From Desulfovibrio oxyclinae DSM 11498 (lineage in GTDB: Bacteria > Desulfobacterota > Desulfovibrionia > Desulfovibrionales > Desulfovibrionaceae): a stretch of DNA of 64,000 nt. Under the pieces are notes generated by a model. The model did not search any database, was not told the origin of the DNA, and saw only the letters and a program-made list of their open reading frames with translations. A program made the translations under genes and the position numbers. The stretch spans positions 9,434 through 73,433 of the forward strand of contig NZ_AQXE01000007.1 of the NCBI RefSeq assembly GCF_000375485.1, read 5' to 3'. How positions within the stretch are numbered: position 1 is the stretch's first letter; each line of letters opens with the position of its first letter. Positions 4,719 through 15,622 of this stretch are shown here, piece by piece.

Positions 4719-5558
4719 ATGGTAGTTCCTCCTAAACATATCCGCCACGCCCGCAAACGGCTTTTCATAGCGCTCATCAGCGGCGCGTGCTTCGTTGTGT
4801 GTCTGCTGCTTGCCGCGCTGTGGGTGGTGCCCTACATCGGGCTGGACAACATTCACCCTTCTGCGAAGTGGATACTCGGAGCGCTCGTGGTGGTGCTGGG
4901 CGGCATGGTCTGCGTGGCCTACTGGGGATTGTTCCTCAACATCGTGCTCAAGCGGCCCCTGCCGGGCTCCCGACGCTTCAGGGGGCTGACGGTCAAGCTT
5001 TTTCTGCCGCTGATGGTGCTCATAGGCCGTATGCTGGGCATCGAAAAGAAGTCGATCCTGCTGTCCTTCATCAGCGTGAACAACGAACTGGTGCTTGCGG
5101 AGGCGGAGCGGTACGATCCGGACCGCGTCCTGCTGCTGATGCCGCACTGCCTGCAGTCCAGCCGCTGCTCGAAACGGCTGACCTACGATGTCAACAACTG
5201 CAAACGCTGCGGCGAATGCCCCATTGCCGGGCTGCTGGATATTCACGATCGGTACGGCGTGCATCTCGCCATTGCCACCGGCGGCACCATCGCCCGGCGC
5301 ATCGTGGTGCAGCTTCGACCCAAGCTGATCATCGCCGTGGCCTGCCAGCGCGATCTGGCCAGTGGGATTCAGGATACGTATCCGCTGCCGGTTTTCGGCG
5401 TGCTCAACGAGCGACCGCACGGCCCGTGTCTCGACACCACCGTTGCGCTTGGCCGGGTGGAGGAGGCCTTGCAGCGATTTCTCAATGAGGACGCTCTCGC
5501 CGGGGTCGAAGGGCCACGAGGCTCGGCTATCGGGACGGGGCAGGCCGTCAACCTCTGA
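4719..5558 (+). CDS. DUF116 family membrane protein
   Basis: 279 residues. Two hydrophobic segments (about 14-40 and 50-76) anchor it in the membrane; the rest is probably cytoplasmic. A cysteine-rich site follows: C144, C150, then CKRCGEC (C161, C164, C167), suggesting a metal or Fe-S site. This layout is typical of the DUF116 family, whose reaction is unknown to me. The start ATG 4719 has a weak GGAAG site. rsmB follows 102 bases downstream on the same strand, so co-transcription is plausible. The 180 bases upstream hold no gene that I can see. Family call is good; function unknown. Confidence 0.8.
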   Translation: MVVPPKHIRHARKRLFIALISGACFVVCLLLAALWVVPYIGLDNIHPSAKWILGALVVVLGGMVCVAYWGLFLNIVLKRPLPGSRRFRGLTVKLFLPLMVLIGRMLGIEKKSILLSFISVNNELVLAEAERYDPDRVLLLMPHCLQSSRCSKRLTYDVNNCKRCGECPIAGLLDIHDRYGVHLAIATGGTIARRIVVQLRPKLIIAVACQRDLASGIQDTYPLPVFGVLNERPHGPCLDTTVALGRVEEALQRFLNEDALAGVEGPRGSAIGTGQAVNL

Positions 5559-5660
5559 TTGTTTCAAGACGGTCGGCTGCGTGACGCTTTCTCTGAAGCA
5601 AGGCGCGCCTGACCATGATATTTGTTTCGCGAGAAATACTTTCAAGGAAAAGGAGATCCG

Positions 5661-6950
5661 GTGTCCAAAGCCGCTCACAAGTCCAAGGTGAAGAACAGGC
5701 CGCTGCCGCCCGCGCGTGCTGCGGCGCTGGAGGCGTTGCAGCGTTGTCTGGGGCAGGGATGCGACATTCAGGCCGCGCTCGACGAAGCCCTGAAGGGCAA
5801 GAACCTTGACCCGCGCGATGCGGCGCTGGCCACAGAACTGGCCTATGGCTATCTGCGGCTCAAAGGCCGCGTTGAGTACGTGCTTTCCGGGTTCGTCAAG
5901 GAGCTGGACCGGATTCCGGACCGTTTTCTCATGGCTCTGGGCGTTGCGGCGTACGAGATTCTGTACCTTGACCGGGTTCCCTCATACGCTTCCGTTGACT
6001 GGGCGGTGGAGTTTGCCAAGAGCAAGCCGGGCGCGAGGCTCTCGGGGTTGTTCAATGCCGTGTTGCGCCGCGTTTCGGAGTTGGGCGCGGACGTGCATGA
6101 AGTTTCCTATTATGACGACGGTTCCGAGCTCGTTGAAGTCTGGAGTCGCTATTATTCCTGCCCGACATGGATCGTGCGGATGTGGCTTGATGCCTATGGC
6201 GAGAAGAAGGCGCAGAAATATCTCGCGGCGCAGGTGCAGCCACCGGCGCTCGGGGTCACCCTCTGGGGACGCGAGGACGCGGATGAGTTGTTCGGGGTGC
6301 TCGCGGGACGTGAGGACCTTCTGGACATTGAAGGCTACTCTTTCGCCTTCCGTCCGGGCGTGTCCCTGCAGAAAATTTCGCCGCCGCTGGAACGTCGCAG
6401 CTTCGCCTCGCGTCAGGCGCTGGAAGCCTTGTATCCCGAACAGTGGCCCACGCCCGTGTGGGATGCCTGCTCCGGGCGCGGCGGCAAGACTCGTGTGTTG
6501 CTGGAGAAGGGAATCGGCCCGCTGTACGCCAGTGACGTGCACATGGGACGGCTCAAGGCCTTGCGCGAGGGAATGCCTGAAGTGGGCGCGTTTCGCGCCA
6601 GAGCCGATGCGGGGGCGCCGCTCAGGGACATGGGCACCGTGCTGCTCGACCTTCCGTGCTCAGGACTCGGCGTGCTCTCGCGGCGGCCGGACGCCAAGTG
6701 GCGGCGCAGCCAGAAGGACATCGCTTCGCTCATCAAGCTGCAGACGGACATCATGGATGCCGCGGCCGAGGCGCTTCGTCCCGGTGGAAAGCTGGCCGTC
6801 ATCACCTGCACGCTCAATCCCGACGAGAACGAGAAGCTCATCGAAGGCTTTCTTGAAAGAAATCCCGGCGCAAGCGAGACAGTACGCTGGACCACCCCGC
6901 TTAATGCCGGACTGGGCGAATTCTTCTTTGCTTCACTGATCGAAAAATAG
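5661..6950 (+). CDS. rsmB: 16S rRNA (cytosine-C5)-methyltransferase RsmB
   Basis: Methylates C967 (E. coli numbering) of 16S rRNA with SAM. GTG 5661 is preferred over ATG 5622 because AGGAG lies 5 bases before it and the extra 13 residues are not family-like; this gives 429 residues. N-terminal NusB-like RNA-binding helical domain (about 15-150), C-terminal Rossmann methyltransferase. Seen: DLPCSGLG with C333, which releases product, and ITCTLNPDEN with catalytic C383, the two cysteines of the Nop2/RsmB family. The SAM loop reads WDACSGRGGKT (usually ACAAPGGKT). It ends close to the convergent lipoprotein gene. Confidence 0.92.
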   Translation: MSKAAHKSKVKNRPLPPARAAALEALQRCLGQGCDIQAALDEALKGKNLDPRDAALATELAYGYLRLKGRVEYVLSGFVKELDRIPDRFLMALGVAAYEILYLDRVPSYASVDWAVEFAKSKPGARLSGLFNAVLRRVSELGADVHEVSYYDDGSELVEVWSRYYSCPTWIVRMWLDAYGEKKAQKYLAAQVQPPALGVTLWGREDADELFGVLAGREDLLDIEGYSFAFRPGVSLQKISPPLERRSFASRQALEALYPEQWPTPVWDACSGRGGKTRVLLEKGIGPLYASDVHMGRLKALREGMPEVGAFRARADAGAPLRDMGTVLLDLPCSGLGVLSRRPDAKWRRSQKDIASLIKLQTDIMDAAAEALRPGGKLAVITCTLNPDENEKLIEGFLERNPGASETVRWTTPLNAGLGEFFFASLIEK

Positions 6951-6983
6951 GGCAAACGGGGCGGCTAGCCGGCCGCCTCTGCT

Positions 6984-7811
6984 TTAGCTGATTCGCTCGA
7001 TATCCAGAAATTCCGTGGTCGCCGTGTGAACCTTGAATCGGTGGCCGTTGATTTCGATCAGCGGTGCTCCAAGGGGCACGGTAACCTTCTCACGGCTCAT
7101 GACCTTGGGCCGGCTTCCGCCCTTGAGTTTTCTCACCTCGAAAAGAATGCTCATGCCCTGTTTACCCTCGAAACGAATGACGTAATGCCGTTCCGAAGAG
7201 GGGATAACCCGGGTACGGATCACGTCCTGGAACCGGACATTGACCGGGTGAATCTCAGCGGGTTGGTTGCGGAAGACACCGGGCGTGCCGGTGGGTTGAT
7301 GGAAGGTGCGTGAGAGAGTGCCATTGCCGTCCACAGCCACGATATAGGAGTCGAGCAGCAAGACGTCGGTGCCGTGCGATGTCTTGAGCTTTTCGTAGGA
7401 AACGTTGGAATAGCCCTGAAGGGTTCGCTCAGCTCCGTCAGGCGATCCACCCGGCAGCTTTACGGTGAAGTCTCGGGAGGCCTGCATCTTCGGCAGTGTC
7501 AGCACTTCTTCATCGTATTTGAGAATGCGCAGGATGTCGGTCCCGGCCGGGAAGGATTTGCGGGTGTCTGTGGCGAGGCTCTCGGAGCGCACCTTGCGCA
7601 CCTTGCGACGGGAAATGTTTTCCAGAAAGCCCACCGTCATGCGTACTTCGCCCGGCGCGAGCGGGGATTCTTGTTCCACTTGCGCGGGGGGCTCGTCAGG
7701 CGGTTGCACGTCGGAAGCCTGCCGTACGCAGCCGGTAAGCGCCAACAGGGACGCCGTCAGGACCGTCAGCGTCATCAGCAGGCATCTAGGACGCAAATGC
7801 TTCCATTGCAT
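6984..7811 (-). CDS. lipoprotein of unknown function in the ATP-grasp/transglutaminase cluster
   Basis: 275 residues from ATG 7811. A type II signal peptide is clear: basic start, hydrophobic stretch 11-24, lipobox LTGC with lipidated C28. A proline-rich linker follows (about 33-50), then a predicted beta-rich periplasmic domain that I do not recognise. The frame continues upstream but the lipobox decides the start. It is last of four minus-strand genes and overlaps the 3' end of the ATP-grasp gene by 26 bases, so it is very likely translated with it. It could be a substrate or a periplasmic partner of that system; this is inference only. Confidence 0.82.
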   Translation of the reverse strand: MQWKHLRPRCLLMTLTVLTASLLALTGCVRQASDVQPPDEPPAQVEQESPLAPGEVRMTVGFLENISRRKVRKVRSESLATDTRKSFPAGTDILRILKYDEEVLTLPKMQASRDFTVKLPGGSPDGAERTLQGYSNVSYEKLKTSHGTDVLLLDSYIVAVDGNGTLSRTFHQPTGTPGVFRNQPAEIHPVNVRFQDVIRTRVIPSSERHYVIRFEGKQGMSILFEVRKLKGGSRPKVMSREKVTVPLGAPLIEINGHRFKVHTATTEFLDIERIS

Positions 7812-8727
7812 AGTCAATCCGTTGTTCTTCCGTTTCGAGAGATTGGTGAACCGCGTCCACGCTGTCCAGCCGGTGTCGCAATCCAGCGCGGTTGGCAACC
7901 TGAATCGCCAGCCCCGGACGCGCGTTGAGTTCCAGTATGAGCGGTCCCTGCGTTTTGTCCAGCACGATGTCCACCCCGAGATAGCCTAGACCGGTGACGG
8001 TGTAGCCGAGCGCCGCCTGTTTCAGCAGCTCCCGCCAGTCCGGTATGGCGACGCCGCCGATCGGATTGAGCGTGTCAGGGTGCGTGTCACAGCCTGCGTT
8101 CTTCCACACGGCGGTAGTGGTCATCCCGGTGTGCATGTCGATGCCGCAGCCCATGGCGCCCTGATGCAGGTTGGCTTTTCCGTCCGACTCGCGGGTGGGC
8201 AGCCGAAGCATGGCCATGACCGGAACACCCTTGTAAACGATGATCCGAATGTCCGGCACGCCTTGATAAGCGATGTCCCGGAAAACCGGGGAGAACTGCA
8301 CGCAGTATTCAACCATGGCGCGGTCCGGCATCCCGCCGAGACTGTACATCCCGCTGAGGATGTTGAGGATGTGAAATGAAATGGACTCGGCGGAGACCAG
8401 CGAATCGTCGGGTTTTCGGAAGCTGTGGCCCAGCTTGCCGGTGATGACCATGATGCCGTTTCCGCCAGCGCCCCGTGCGGGTTTGACCACGAACGAGTCG
8501 TGCCGCTCCAGCAGTTCGGGCAGCCTCTTGAGCTCGTGCTGAGAGCGGAATATCCCGTACAGTTCCGGCACGTTCAGCCCGGCGGATTCGGTCAGCCGTT
8601 TCGTGGTGATCTTGTCGTCCACGAGCGGATAGAGCGGCCGGGGATTGTGGGGCAACACATATCCGGCATTGCGGGAGTTGAGGCCGACCACGCCGAGCGA
8701 GCGGAGTTTTCTGAACCAGCCGAGCAT
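7786..8727 (-). CDS. RimK-related ATP-grasp ligase (alpha-L-glutamate ligase-like)
   Basis: 313 residues. The ATP-grasp fold is visible: a nucleotide-lysine segment SFVVKPARGAGGNGIMVI near residue 80, and the Mg-binding end with LGVDIVLDK and LILELNARPGL near 265-285. RimK-type enzymes join amino acids such as glutamate to a carboxyl group using ATP. No ribosomal S6 or coenzyme F420 context is present. Instead it sits 4 bases after the inactive-transglutaminase gene in a cluster also holding a retropepsin-like protease. Such clusters are known from comparative genomics, with a proposed role in peptide or protein tagging at the envelope. Cytoplasmic; exact substrate unknown. Confidence 0.85.
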   Translation of the reverse strand: MLGWFRKLRSLGVVGLNSRNAGYVLPHNPRPLYPLVDDKITTKRLTESAGLNVPELYGIFRSQHELKRLPELLERHDSFVVKPARGAGGNGIMVITGKLGHSFRKPDDSLVSAESISFHILNILSGMYSLGGMPDRAMVEYCVQFSPVFRDIAYQGVPDIRIIVYKGVPVMAMLRLPTRESDGKANLHQGAMGCGIDMHTGMTTTAVWKNAGCDTHPDTLNPIGGVAIPDWRELLKQAALGYTVTGLGYLGVDIVLDKTQGPLILELNARPGLAIQVANRAGLRHRLDSVDAVHQSLETEEQRIDYAMEAFAS

Positions 8728-8731
8728 GATC

Positions 8732-10297
8732 CTACCTCTTGAGCAGCGCCCGGAAGCGGATGAGTTCGAGCAGCCGGAAGCCGGTGTAGCGTCCGGTCAT
8801 CATGGTCAGCGCCAGCAGCACGAGGAACAGCTCCGGGAAGACGAAGGTGAGATGCTCTATGTACTGATTGCTCATGGCCAGATAAGCCAGCACGGCCACG
8901 GCCATGGTGCCGATGATCTGCTGGATGGCCTTGCCTGCGCCCATCTCGTCCCACATGACGGAGACGCGCTCGATGGTCATGCTCAAAATAACCATGGGGA
9001 AGAGGCTGACGGAGATGCCGCGGGGAAAGCCCAGCTTGAAGCTGACGACGCTGATGCCTGCCATGAGCAGCACCACCACGATGAGCACGCAGGCGAGCCT
9101 TGGCACGAGCAGCAGCTTGAGGTGCTCCAGATAGAGGCGGACCGAAAGCCCGAGGATGATCACGATGGAAAAGAGGCAGACACCCCAAAGCAGCTCGGTT
9201 TCCCTGAACGAGAGCGCGATGAGCGCGGGCATGAAGGTGCCGAAGGTGGAAAAGCCGATGACGTTGCGCAGGAAGACCAACAGCAGTGCCCCGATGGGGA
9301 TGAGCAGAATGACCCGGTAGGTGGCCTGCGCCTGCACCGGCAGGTTGAAGAGGGAAAAGCCCATGATCGCGGGTTCGGTGATGTTGAGTTGCTCGACGGT
9401 GTTTTTCAGGGAACTCACGGATACCGGCGCCACGGAGAGTGTCACTTCGAGATTATCGCCGCCTTTCAGGGAGGCAAGCGGGGCATTGCCGCGCCACCAC
9501 GGGACGAAATCCCCCGGCGTTCCGAAGGCGCCCTGAGTGACGTCGAACATATGCCATGCGCCGTCGTGGTAGAGTTCCAGCCAGTGGCTCAGGGGGGCGT
9601 TGTTGGAGGTGCTGAGGGTGATGCCGTGGACCGACTGGGCCGGAATGCCTGAAAAATGCAGCAACCTGACGGCCATGTTGACCGCGCCGAGACGGCCGGG
9701 ATGTCCCCGCAGCAGATAGGCCGCGTCCGTGTTGTCCGAAGGCGGCATGAGCAGCTGCATCAGATGGGGCACGAAGGTTTCGATATCCGCGGATTCGCTG
9801 CCGACCTTGGTTAGCAGGGAGTTGGCGGCGGCCTGCTCCGCCGGCGTGAACTGCGGGTCCACGAGTCTCGGGATGTCCGTTGGGTGCACCCAGGTGCGGT
9901 CGTCGGAATTGTTTTCGGGCCGCAGGCGGGCGGAGTAGAACAGGTCCTGTTTGCCTTTCGCGGAACGTTTGGACCAGACCGCGATGGCGTTTTCGGCGTC
10001 GGTGTCGTTGGTCAGGCCGGAGCCGTCTTCGGCCTGCATGCCGCGCAGGAGACCATAGTCGTCGCTGATGAAGTATTCGTCCGTGACCACGAAGCGGGGC
10101 AGCCGGTTCAGGGTCTGGAGCGTGGCCTTGACCGGGCTGTCCTGTGCCTCGAAGGAGACGCGGGCCTCCACGTTCCATGTTCTGGTCTGTTCTTCAGGTG
10201 TGAGCGGAAAGCCCAGAACAAAGGCCTTGTAGCCGAAAATGCCGAGACCGGTCAGCAGGAGCAGGCTCACCAACAGCTTCAATTGCAGAGAATTCAT
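8732..10297 (-). CDS. inactive transglutaminase-like protein with multi-TM C-terminal domain
   Basis: 521 residues. One N-terminal TM segment (about 7-27), a periplasmic transglutaminase-like domain (about 30-310), then a membrane domain with about seven helices (320-510). In the core, SHWLELYHDG and MFDVTQG keep the His and Asp of the triad, but the segment where the catalytic Cys is expected (GRLGAVNMAVRLLHFSGIPA) has none, so it should not be catalytic. This matches the 'inactive transglutaminase fused to 7TM helices' family that travels with RimK-like ligases. It ends 4 bases before the ATP-grasp gene and follows the protease gene by 44 bases. Confidence 0.88.
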   Translation of the reverse strand: MNSLQLKLLVSLLLLTGLGIFGYKAFVLGFPLTPEEQTRTWNVEARVSFEAQDSPVKATLQTLNRLPRFVVTDEYFISDDYGLLRGMQAEDGSGLTNDTDAENAIAVWSKRSAKGKQDLFYSARLRPENNSDDRTWVHPTDIPRLVDPQFTPAEQAAANSLLTKVGSESADIETFVPHLMQLLMPPSDNTDAAYLLRGHPGRLGAVNMAVRLLHFSGIPAQSVHGITLSTSNNAPLSHWLELYHDGAWHMFDVTQGAFGTPGDFVPWWRGNAPLASLKGGDNLEVTLSVAPVSVSSLKNTVEQLNITEPAIMGFSLFNLPVQAQATYRVILLIPIGALLLVFLRNVIGFSTFGTFMPALIALSFRETELLWGVCLFSIVIILGLSVRLYLEHLKLLLVPRLACVLIVVVLLMAGISVVSFKLGFPRGISVSLFPMVILSMTIERVSVMWDEMGAGKAIQQIIGTMAVAVLAYLAMSNQYIEHLTFVFPELFLVLLALTMMTGRYTGFRLLELIRFRALLKR

Positions 10298-10341
10298 GTC
10301 CGGTTGATCCTTGAAGAGATCGGCGGCGCGTGCGTCGTCGG

Positions 10342-10896
10342 TTACTGTCCTTCGGGCAGGGAGAGAAGGTTGCGGCGGGAAGAGTCTACCAGAATACCCC
10401 GGCGGAGTTCCTTTCTGCCGATGAGCATTCTGGATGAGAAATTGCTTCTGTCGGCCAGATTGATGAACGCATCGAGCTTTTTGCTGCCGATGGTCACCAC
10501 CACCGGGATGACGGCTCGGCGCTGGTAACCCGAGGGTCGCTTCTTGATTCTCACGATACGGTCGTATTCGCAGGTGACCCGCTGTTTGCGATCCTGCTGG
10601 TCCAACACGGTGAAGGTCACGGTGTCGTTATCCTCGTCGAGGACGATATCCTCGGCGTGCATGGAGGAACTGTCAGCGCCGCTGTCGAGCTTCGCTTCCA
10701 TGGTGATGGGGGCTTCTATGCCGCGGATCGTGATGGAGACCTTCTCCATATATCCTGCGATGATGTAGTCCCGGCTCGTGAGTTCGGAAGCCGTTTCCTG
10801 AGCGCTGGGTTCCTGCTTCGCGGCGCCGTCGTCCGCATGAACGATACCCGTCGTCAGGATCATGCAGAGAGTCGTCAGGATTATGATTCTGTTCAT
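10342..10896 (-). CDS. secreted retropepsin-like (RimK-associated 'zinc protease') aspartic protease
   Basis: 184 residues from ATG 10896. An N-terminal signal peptide (about 1-20) implies export. The motif KLDSGADSSSMHAED (about residues 69-83) contains the DSGA that matches the DTGA active site of retropepsins; members are often annotated 'ATP-dependent zinc protease', a name that need not reflect mechanism. An in-frame TTG at 10908 is a less likely start. It is the first gene of the cluster. Logically it could trim what the ATP-grasp enzyme adds, by analogy with other RimK-protease pairs, but compartments differ. Family call good, substrate unknown. Confidence 0.85.
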   Translation of the reverse strand: MNRIIILTTLCMILTTGIVHADDGAAKQEPSAQETASELTSRDYIIAGYMEKVSITIRGIEAPITMEAKLDSGADSSSMHAEDIVLDEDNDTVTFTVLDQQDRKQRVTCEYDRIVRIKKRPSGYQRRAVIPVVVTIGSKKLDAFINLADRSNFSSRMLIGRKELRRGILVDSSRRNLLSLPEGQ

Positions 10897-11142: not shown

Positions 11143-11787
11143 CTAGCGCTTGAATGTCATGGTCTGATTTGCCAGCGCTTCCTCGGAGCCGGCCCACGCG
11201 TAGGACAGCAGGCACGGTTCCGTTCTCCCCGTAGTGATGCGGTGGCTGTGCTCCGGAGGGTTGTAGATGAGAGAGCCCGGGGCATACACGCCCGCGTCGT
11301 TCTGCGAAAGCGTGCCACTGAGGCATAGGTAGGATTCGGTGATGCCTGCGTGGCTGTGAGCCGGGTACACCGTATCGGGGGCGAGCAGCACGACGCCGAG
11401 GATCAGTTTGTCGAAGCGCACCAGCCCGCATGGCCCCATGAGTTCGCTGTAGGCGTATCTGTCACTGAGTTTCTTGGGCATCCACTCGTAACCGTATCCC
11501 CATGACAGGCTTGCGGCGATGCGCGAGAACATCCGTACCGACCCGGCGGCGGGGCCGTGCATTCCGTTGTCCACCGCACGGTCAAGATGAAAGCAGACGG
11601 GTTTGGACTGCGCTTCTGGCAGGACGACTTCAGGGCATTGCTTCAGGGCCTGTTTCAACGCCACGCGAACATGTTTCATGTGGCTGTTGATGATCTTGCT
11701 GCCGCCGGCAGAGCCGTTGCGGTACCAGAACAGGATGTCCTGAAGGTAGTAGGTCAGATACGGGTGGTCTTTGAGCGTGCAGGTCAT
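11143..11787 (-). CDS. cupin protein resembling DMSP lyases (DddL/DddQ type)
   Basis: 214 residues; start ATG 11787 behind GGGGAGG. The cupin core is intact: H144-x-H146, E151, Y153 and G158 in YPAHSHAGITESYLCLSG, then P170-G171 and H180/H182 in PPEHSH. The Tyr two after the Glu, the preceding SWGYGYEW and YAYSELMGP segments, and the closing SYAWAG segment are as I recall the DMSP-lyase cupin family, which splits dimethylsulfoniopropionate to DMS and acrylate with a metal ion and that Tyr. A generic sugar or regulatory cupin is the alternative. DMSP cleavage is known in some marine Desulfovibrio. No acrylate genes sit beside it. Confidence 0.55.
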   Translation of the reverse strand: MTCTLKDHPYLTYYLQDILFWYRNGSAGGSKIINSHMKHVRVALKQALKQCPEVVLPEAQSKPVCFHLDRAVDNGMHGPAAGSVRMFSRIAASLSWGYGYEWMPKKLSDRYAYSELMGPCGLVRFDKLILGVVLLAPDTVYPAHSHAGITESYLCLSGTLSQNDAGVYAPGSLIYNPPEHSHRITTGRTEPCLLSYAWAGSEEALANQTMTFKR

Positions 11788-15235: not shown

Positions 15236-15622
15236 ATGCGTATCAAGAATCTTGTTCTGGCAATGATGCTGCTCCTTTCCGCCGTGGCGGTGACCGGTTG
15301 CGGCGCAATCATCGCAGGCACTGCGGCTGCCACGGGAACGTATGTCTACGTTGACGGTCAGGCCAAGGCAGACTACCGCGCCAGTCTGGGGCGGACTTAT
15401 GACGCCTCTCTGGCGGCCTGTCGCAGTCTCGGCATGAACATCACCGGACAGGAGATCGACGGCGACTCCGCAAGCATCAGCGCGGACTATCGTGGCGATA
15501 CCATCTGGATTCGCCTGTCTTTGGAGGGTGATAACTTCACGCAGGTCAGCGTCCGCGTCGGCCTTCTGGGCGACAAAGTGCAGTCCAGACGTATTCACGA
15601 CTCCATCGCGGCGAACCTGTAA
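15236..15622 (+). CDS. small DUF3568-type lipoprotein
   Basis: 128 residues with a type II signal peptide: hydrophobic LVLAMMLLLSAVAV, lipobox VTGC with C22. A Gly/Ala-rich segment (GAIIAGTAAATGTYVYVDG) leads into one small alpha-beta domain with AACRSLGM and QEIDGDSASISADY. This pattern matches the DUF3568 family of small envelope lipoproteins in Desulfovibrio; function unknown. Monocistronic, with its own strong terminator. Confidence 0.82.
   Translation: MRIKNLVLAMMLLLSAVAVTGCGAIIAGTAAATGTYVYVDGQAKADYRASLGRTYDASLAACRSLGMNITGQEIDGDSASISADYRGDTIWIRLSLEGDNFTQVSVRVGLLGDKVQSRRIHDSIAANL

Follow-up and report, generated by a model that had tools for sequence, protein, structure and literature searches.

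The 64,000-nucleotide stretch of Desulfovibrio oxyclinae DSM 11498 analyzed here (GCF_000375485.1, NZ_AQXE01000007.1, positions 9,434–73,433 of the forward strand; hereafter the window, whose first letter is position 1 and to which all gene coordinates refer) carries four minus-strand genes, A, B, C and D in the order of transcription. They make up a version of the rlo operon (rloA-rloB-rloC) found in Desulfovibrionaceae, to which an overlapping gene for a predicted lipoprotein has been added. The three-gene core is already known, and gene D is the new part. Systems of this kind are said to have been predicted early on by Iyer et al. in 2009. The cluster spans 6984–10896, and its open reading frames (ORFs) and translations bear out the spacing reported in a first-pass annotation, with 44 bases between A and B, 4 bases between B and C and an overlap of 26 bases between C and D:

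10342–10896, minus strand: rloA-type secreted retropepsin-like aspartic protease (gene A), 184 amino acids; PF05618, motif DSGA
8732–10297, minus strand: rloB-type inactive transglutaminase-seven-transmembrane (7TM) membrane protein (gene B), 521 amino acids; PF14400 and PF14402
7786–8727, minus strand: rloC-type ATP-grasp ligase (gene C), 313 amino acids; PF14397, and TIGR02291 above its cut-off
6984–7811, minus strand: gene D (proposed name rloD), putative lipoprotein, 275 amino acids; lipobox LTGC, all-beta, without known family
7786–7811, minus strand: overlap of rloC and D, 26 bases; each of the 10 distinct typical D loci has an in-frame ATG here

The rlo operon was named in Pseudomonas aeruginosa in 2025 (PMC12239564) and is defined by its gene order; here, too, rloA, rloB and rloC are contiguous, on one strand and in this order, with the same three families and with the residues that contact polyglutamate kept. 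We assign the cluster to rlo by synteny and domains because the NCBIfam models of RloA, RloA2, RloA3 and RloB (three of type "exception" and one "equivalog") are apparently narrow and their cut-offs are missed, at 54.7 bits against 210 for the best RloA model and 409.6 bits against 900 for RloB. In P. aeruginosa, three secreted RloA proteases are jointly needed for salt-free growth, deletion of rloB or rloC restores this growth to the triple mutant completely and relieves its remaining defects in part, and RloA cuts runs of 8 or 10 glutamates (Glu) in vitro and not those of 6 or fewer (PMC12239564). The same operon is listed in a suppressor screen (PMC7314104). In view of these genetics, the first-pass annotation was correct to call the protease, membrane protein and ligase a known but poorly understood association, which is real, conserved and now partly solved; its idea of an amino-acid tag that is put on and taken off an envelope substrate agrees with the low-salt rescue. 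The cluster differs from that of P. aeruginosa in its fourth gene, in having DSGA where DTGA occurs there, in lacking the cysteine pair of RloA and in the single PF05618 gene of its genome, as opposed to RloA, RloA2, RloA3 and RimB.

Conservation of the operon and linkage of gene D

In the window's order, PF14402 is carried by 19 of the 199 genomes sampled; for the phylum the figure is 20 of 247, and the window's own genome is part of both counts. The loci compared come from the 18 other genomes of the order and, for the rest of the phylum, number 20 from 19 other genomes (one PF14402 piece, on contig 272 of G383, was left out). This survey, which the first-pass annotation had proposed as a check, found A-B-C contiguous in 17 of the 18 order loci, the 18th being an A-B pair on a contig that ends before C. 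In the rest of the phylum, 14 loci are A-B-C, three are A-B before a contig end and three are B-C, with A adjoining B in 17 of the 20; the three B-C loci (L099, L100 and L101) are without a detected rloA and encode a more divergent RloB. Since contiguity recurs across order and phylum loci, a chance association of A, B and C is excluded, as is that of C and D. The tight spacing had also been read as implying a single machine: the tight linkage stands, and a single physical machine would go beyond the present evidence.

Gene D is strictly tied to the operon within one clade. A profile built from the window's D and 16 of its 19 sequence matches (its own copy, P0009 and P0017 being left out) found D in 10 of the 199 order genomes, all of which also carry PF14402 and have D directly after rloC, as do two more named loci (L003 and L004). 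The in-frame ATG that gives the 26-base overlap is present in every one of the 10 distinct typical loci, five of which also have earlier in-frame ATGs, so that the start there was picked by likeness; in the divergent D loci L050 and L051, the only listed ATG gives an overlap with rloC of 116 and 101 bases, respectively. D accompanies 10 of the 19 rlo-bearing genomes of the order, and the profile matched none of the 20 loci sampled elsewhere in the phylum, although at four of these (L085, L088, L089 and L098) the contig stops at or short of the position of D; the downstream ORFs listed for these 20 loci showed no recurring fourth gene. Thus, of the four equal parts first described, a three-gene core is upheld, and the lipoprotein is a clade-specific addition. 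Our literature search recognized no description of a fourth rlo gene, and the word "lipoprotein" is absent from the main text of PMC12239564. At L090, a 790-amino-acid lipoprotein-like ORF with Cys-rich, haem-binding-like motifs lies 98 bases after rloC and is without a match to the D profile.

In a maximum-likelihood tree of RloB (30 rows, comprising 8 other homologues and 22 distinct loci, where L002 was omitted because it duplicates L043), all 12 loci with D, the divergent L050 and L051 among them, form one clade with support of 100/99, within which no row lacks D. Genes flanking the D loci vary between genera. One clade, constant linkage and differing flanks are most simply explained by a single gain of D, which then would have stayed with the operon. 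Within the window's genus, four genomes carry PF14402 and at least 20 do not; three of the four belong to a D-less lineage and only that of the window to the D lineage. RloB of the window's type is closest to that of another genus, with up to 79% identity, and either transfer or differential loss would explain this distribution.

Ligase, membrane protein and protease

On balance, we consider it probable that RloC makes, RloB passes or presents and RloA trims a polyglutamyl product, with D acting at the outer membrane. We propose the steps of synthesis, passage and trimming because of the published epistasis in P. aeruginosa (PMC12239564). In the cytosol, RloC would use ATP to form an acidic peptide, a chain of alpha-linked glutamates being the likeliest form, either free or on an acceptor; RloB would move this product across the inner membrane or display it there, and its transglutaminase domain, which lacks Cys, could act at the periplasmic face as a scaffold that binds peptides; RloA, presumably a periplasmic homodimeric aspartic protease, would trim the product and spare the envelope from damage. 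Gene order, families, predicted export signals, the catalytic and substrate-contact residues and the linkage of D are read from the sequence; the substrate of RloC, the transport role of RloB and the location and role of D are inferred, as is the carry-over of the P. aeruginosa results.

The ligase is clearly assigned, with PF14397 at 9.6e-86 and TIGR02291 at 428 bits against a cut-off of 314.2. Its earlier description as RimK-like holds in that it is an ATP-grasp protein (ATPgrasp_ST, TIGR02291) and fails for an S6-type RimK, which the first-pass annotation had itself named as a refuting outcome: the S6-type model NF007764 gives RloC 17 bits where 331 are required, and TIGR00768 gives 43.1 bits where 143.4 are. 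The cluster does resemble RimB-RimK in pairing a retropepsin-like protease with an ATP-grasp ligase and in its relation to glutamate chains, and distant homology is seen both between RloA and RimB (NF052261, 3.4e-10) and between RloC and RimK (TIGR00768, 3.3e-11). RimB, however, is cytosolic and RimK modifies the ribosomal protein S6 (RpsF), whereas here the protease has a signal peptide and a membrane protein is present; RloA itself reaches only 39.9 bits against a cut-off of 200 for RimB. Furthermore, rimB is reported to lack a genetic interaction with rloA in P. aeruginosa (PMC12239564). Modification of the ribosome by the present cluster is therefore highly improbable. In the window's own genome (a 3.32 Mb assembly in 32 contigs, 99.78% complete), no PF08443 (RimK) match was found at 1e-3 in a search that also overlooked RloC and is thus insensitive to distant members, and no DNA run codes for eight Glu.

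RloB matches PF14402 at 2.4e-98 and PF14400 at 3e-43, both above the cut-off. Structure prediction gives an N-terminal helix, a beta-sandwich with a Cys-less transglutaminase fold (residues 38–295) and the PF14402 7TM domain (residues 273–518). The earlier statement that the transglutaminase domain has lost its Cys holds for the aligned rows, since none of the 48 has Cys in the columns of residues 191–262; the catalytic Cys of an active transglutaminase or cysteine protease was not found in RloB. Among the closest known systems is 3isr of Cytophaga hutchinsonii, a putative cysteine protease, from which RloB differs in this respect and by its 7TM domain. In Shewanella, vesicle output is reported to increase when a gene for an inactive transglutaminase-7TM protein is disrupted (PMC12096838).

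Making, exporting and trimming a glutamate polymer recalls PgsB-PgsC and its hydrolases, an analogy of how the systems work only. We take PgsB to be a different kind of ligase from RloC. Closer kinship, in which RloC-RloB would be a polymer synthase-exporter like PgsB-PgsC and the RloB 7TM domain a distant relative of PgsC/CapC, was examined because the spacing of two invariant prolines is nearly equal in both families (P357 and P434 of RloB, 77 apart; P33 and P112 of CapC, 79 apart). The profile alignment places the first motifs together, and the predicted helices of RloB are broken near P357. The comparison by hhalign is, however, not significant (E of 0.52, 0.27 and 0.074), 5 of 60 block shuffles outscore its 17.8 (the reversed alignment gives 12.6), and hmmscan of the 48 RloB rows against Pfam gives no CapC hit. 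Relatedness of RloB to PgsC/CapC is unsupported by these comparisons, and we retain it only as a weak and improbable alternative. No solved CapC relative was found for comparison. The CapC family PF14102 was detected in 2 of the 247 genomes surveyed for the phylum. Within one class, 4 of 85 genomes had a match at E <= 0.001, and one of these four matches is an ORF resembling an unrelated transporter; a scan of viral_contigs confirmed no CapC. At locus L056, from the same phylum as the window, positions 5195–8437 on the minus strand encode a 1080-amino-acid protein in which a tandem pair of CapC domains is followed by an extended C-terminal region, in contrast to the small single-domain CapC of L053.

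RloA matches PF05618 at 7.6e-20 and has the active site DSGA with catalytic D71. Its N-terminus is hydrophobic and ends in GIVHA before D22, a signal peptide as judged by eye, in line with the exported DSGA protease first proposed. K69, D71, R127 and R150 correspond to K46, D48, R114 and R137 of the P. aeruginosa protein, and these columns hold K or R, D, R and R in every row of an RloA alignment; an A gene is present at 21 distinct loci, 16 of which the alignment covers. DSGA is unusual and, of the 16 rows, is found in the window's only. The cysteine pair (a disulfide), called conserved in periplasmic orthologues in PMC12239564, is absent, mature RloA having only C109; this is a structural trait, outside the gene-order definition of rlo. 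The window's genome has one gene for a RloA/RimB-type protease. Elsewhere in the phylum, five rlo loci (L085, L088, L089, L090 and L093) have two tandem RloA-type genes before rloB, perhaps a local version of the redundancy in P. aeruginosa.

The gene D product at the envelope

The D protein has no Pfam or NCBIfam family at E <= 1, and among 5.8 billion proteins it has 19 matches, one of them the window's own copy; the named ones are from Maridesulfovibrio, Desulfovibrio and Desulfobaculum. Its lipobox, LTGC, has Cys 28 as the lipidation site, and this Cys is invariant in the 17 aligned rows, in none of which it is followed by Asp. In E. coli, the residue after the lipobox Cys (Asp or not) decides the destination of a lipoprotein. 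The lack of Asp therefore points to sorting of D to the outer membrane. The mature domain is all-beta in an AlphaFold2 model built from 17 sequences (mean predicted local distance difference test, pLDDT, 85.8), for which a Foldseek search of the PDB has no hit at E <= 0.001 and VIA-align gives nothing over its stated background. Always-basic columns outnumber always-acidic ones (14 versus 9), which weakly suggests that D binds an acidic partner.

Linkage, overlap and predicted location lead us to place D at the outer membrane, where it would bind the product or RloA and keep trimming there. In a bolder and rather unlikely reading, D would be the missing outer-membrane arm of rlo, a dedicated lipoprotein capturing the polyglutamyl product made by RloC and RloB or acting as its acceptor. 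If so, the system of the D clade would span cytosolic synthesis, inner-membrane passage and an outer-membrane receptor, and would tie a non-ribosomal glutamate polymer to envelope integrity.

Taken alone, the acceptor version, in which D is an envelope protein that RloC polyglutamylates and RloA restores and that was recruited to the operon in this clade, seems quite improbable. D is indeed strictly linked, overlapping and directly behind the ligase gene, and the absence of an encoded eight-Glu run in the genome would be in keeping with such a role. RloC, however, has no export signal, whereas D would be exported as a lipoprotein. Furthermore, the C-terminus of D is a confident beta strand (residues 268–273, block pLDDT 96–97) and lacks the acidic tail of acceptors that RimK-type ligases modify at the C-terminus, and operons without D must have another substrate.

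D could also anchor RloA to lipid or serve as its docking partner, replacing an anchor that RloA itself seems to have in another rlo lineage of the same order. A D-less clade of RloB (L036, L038, L039, L040, L041 and L049; support 100/100), three of whose six loci are in the window's own genus, has RloA with a lipoprotein-like N-terminus, and the linker after it is often long (3 of 6 fit the lipobox pattern, and by eye 6 of 6 look lipidated); of the nine distinct typical D loci that also encode RloA, none shows the lipobox pattern, with one possible by eye at L048. The exchange is incomplete, however, as L050 and L051 have both an RloA lipobox and D, while L035, L037, L052 and the Legionella locus L005 have neither, and as few as two or three independent events may underlie the pattern, which could be a historical accident. 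We thus regard replacement of an RloA anchor as possible yet unlikely, while the lipoboxes hint at a recurring lipid anchor for the trimming step.

In P. aeruginosa, rlo has effects on biofilm, cell shape and tolerance of low salt. A constant neighbor in one clade is a concrete candidate for the substrate, receptor or anchor of the system. With one RloA-type protease gene, no RimK detected and no encoded eight-Glu run, D. oxyclinae offers a simpler background, so single deletions may show what three redundant proteases hide in P. aeruginosa. Together, these results confirm the four-gene observation of the first-pass annotation and partly support its interpretation.

Neighboring genes

On the D side, the cluster is flanked by a convergent gene at 5622–6950, presumably rRNA methyltransferase-like. 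A scan for promoters and terminators gave 2 promoter-like sites where 1.4 are expected and 4 terminator-like sites where 3.1 are, and was not used; its site near rloA overlaps the rloA start codon. A cupin gene (11143–11787, minus strand) lies on the same strand, 246 bases upstream of rloA, with a strong match to the Pfam DMSP_lyase family (PF16867, 2e-36) and with no NCBIfam DMSP-lyase model at its cut-off. Farther away, 15236–15622 on the plus strand encodes a small DUF3568 protein (PF12092, 2.7e-33) with a lipoprotein-like N-terminus.
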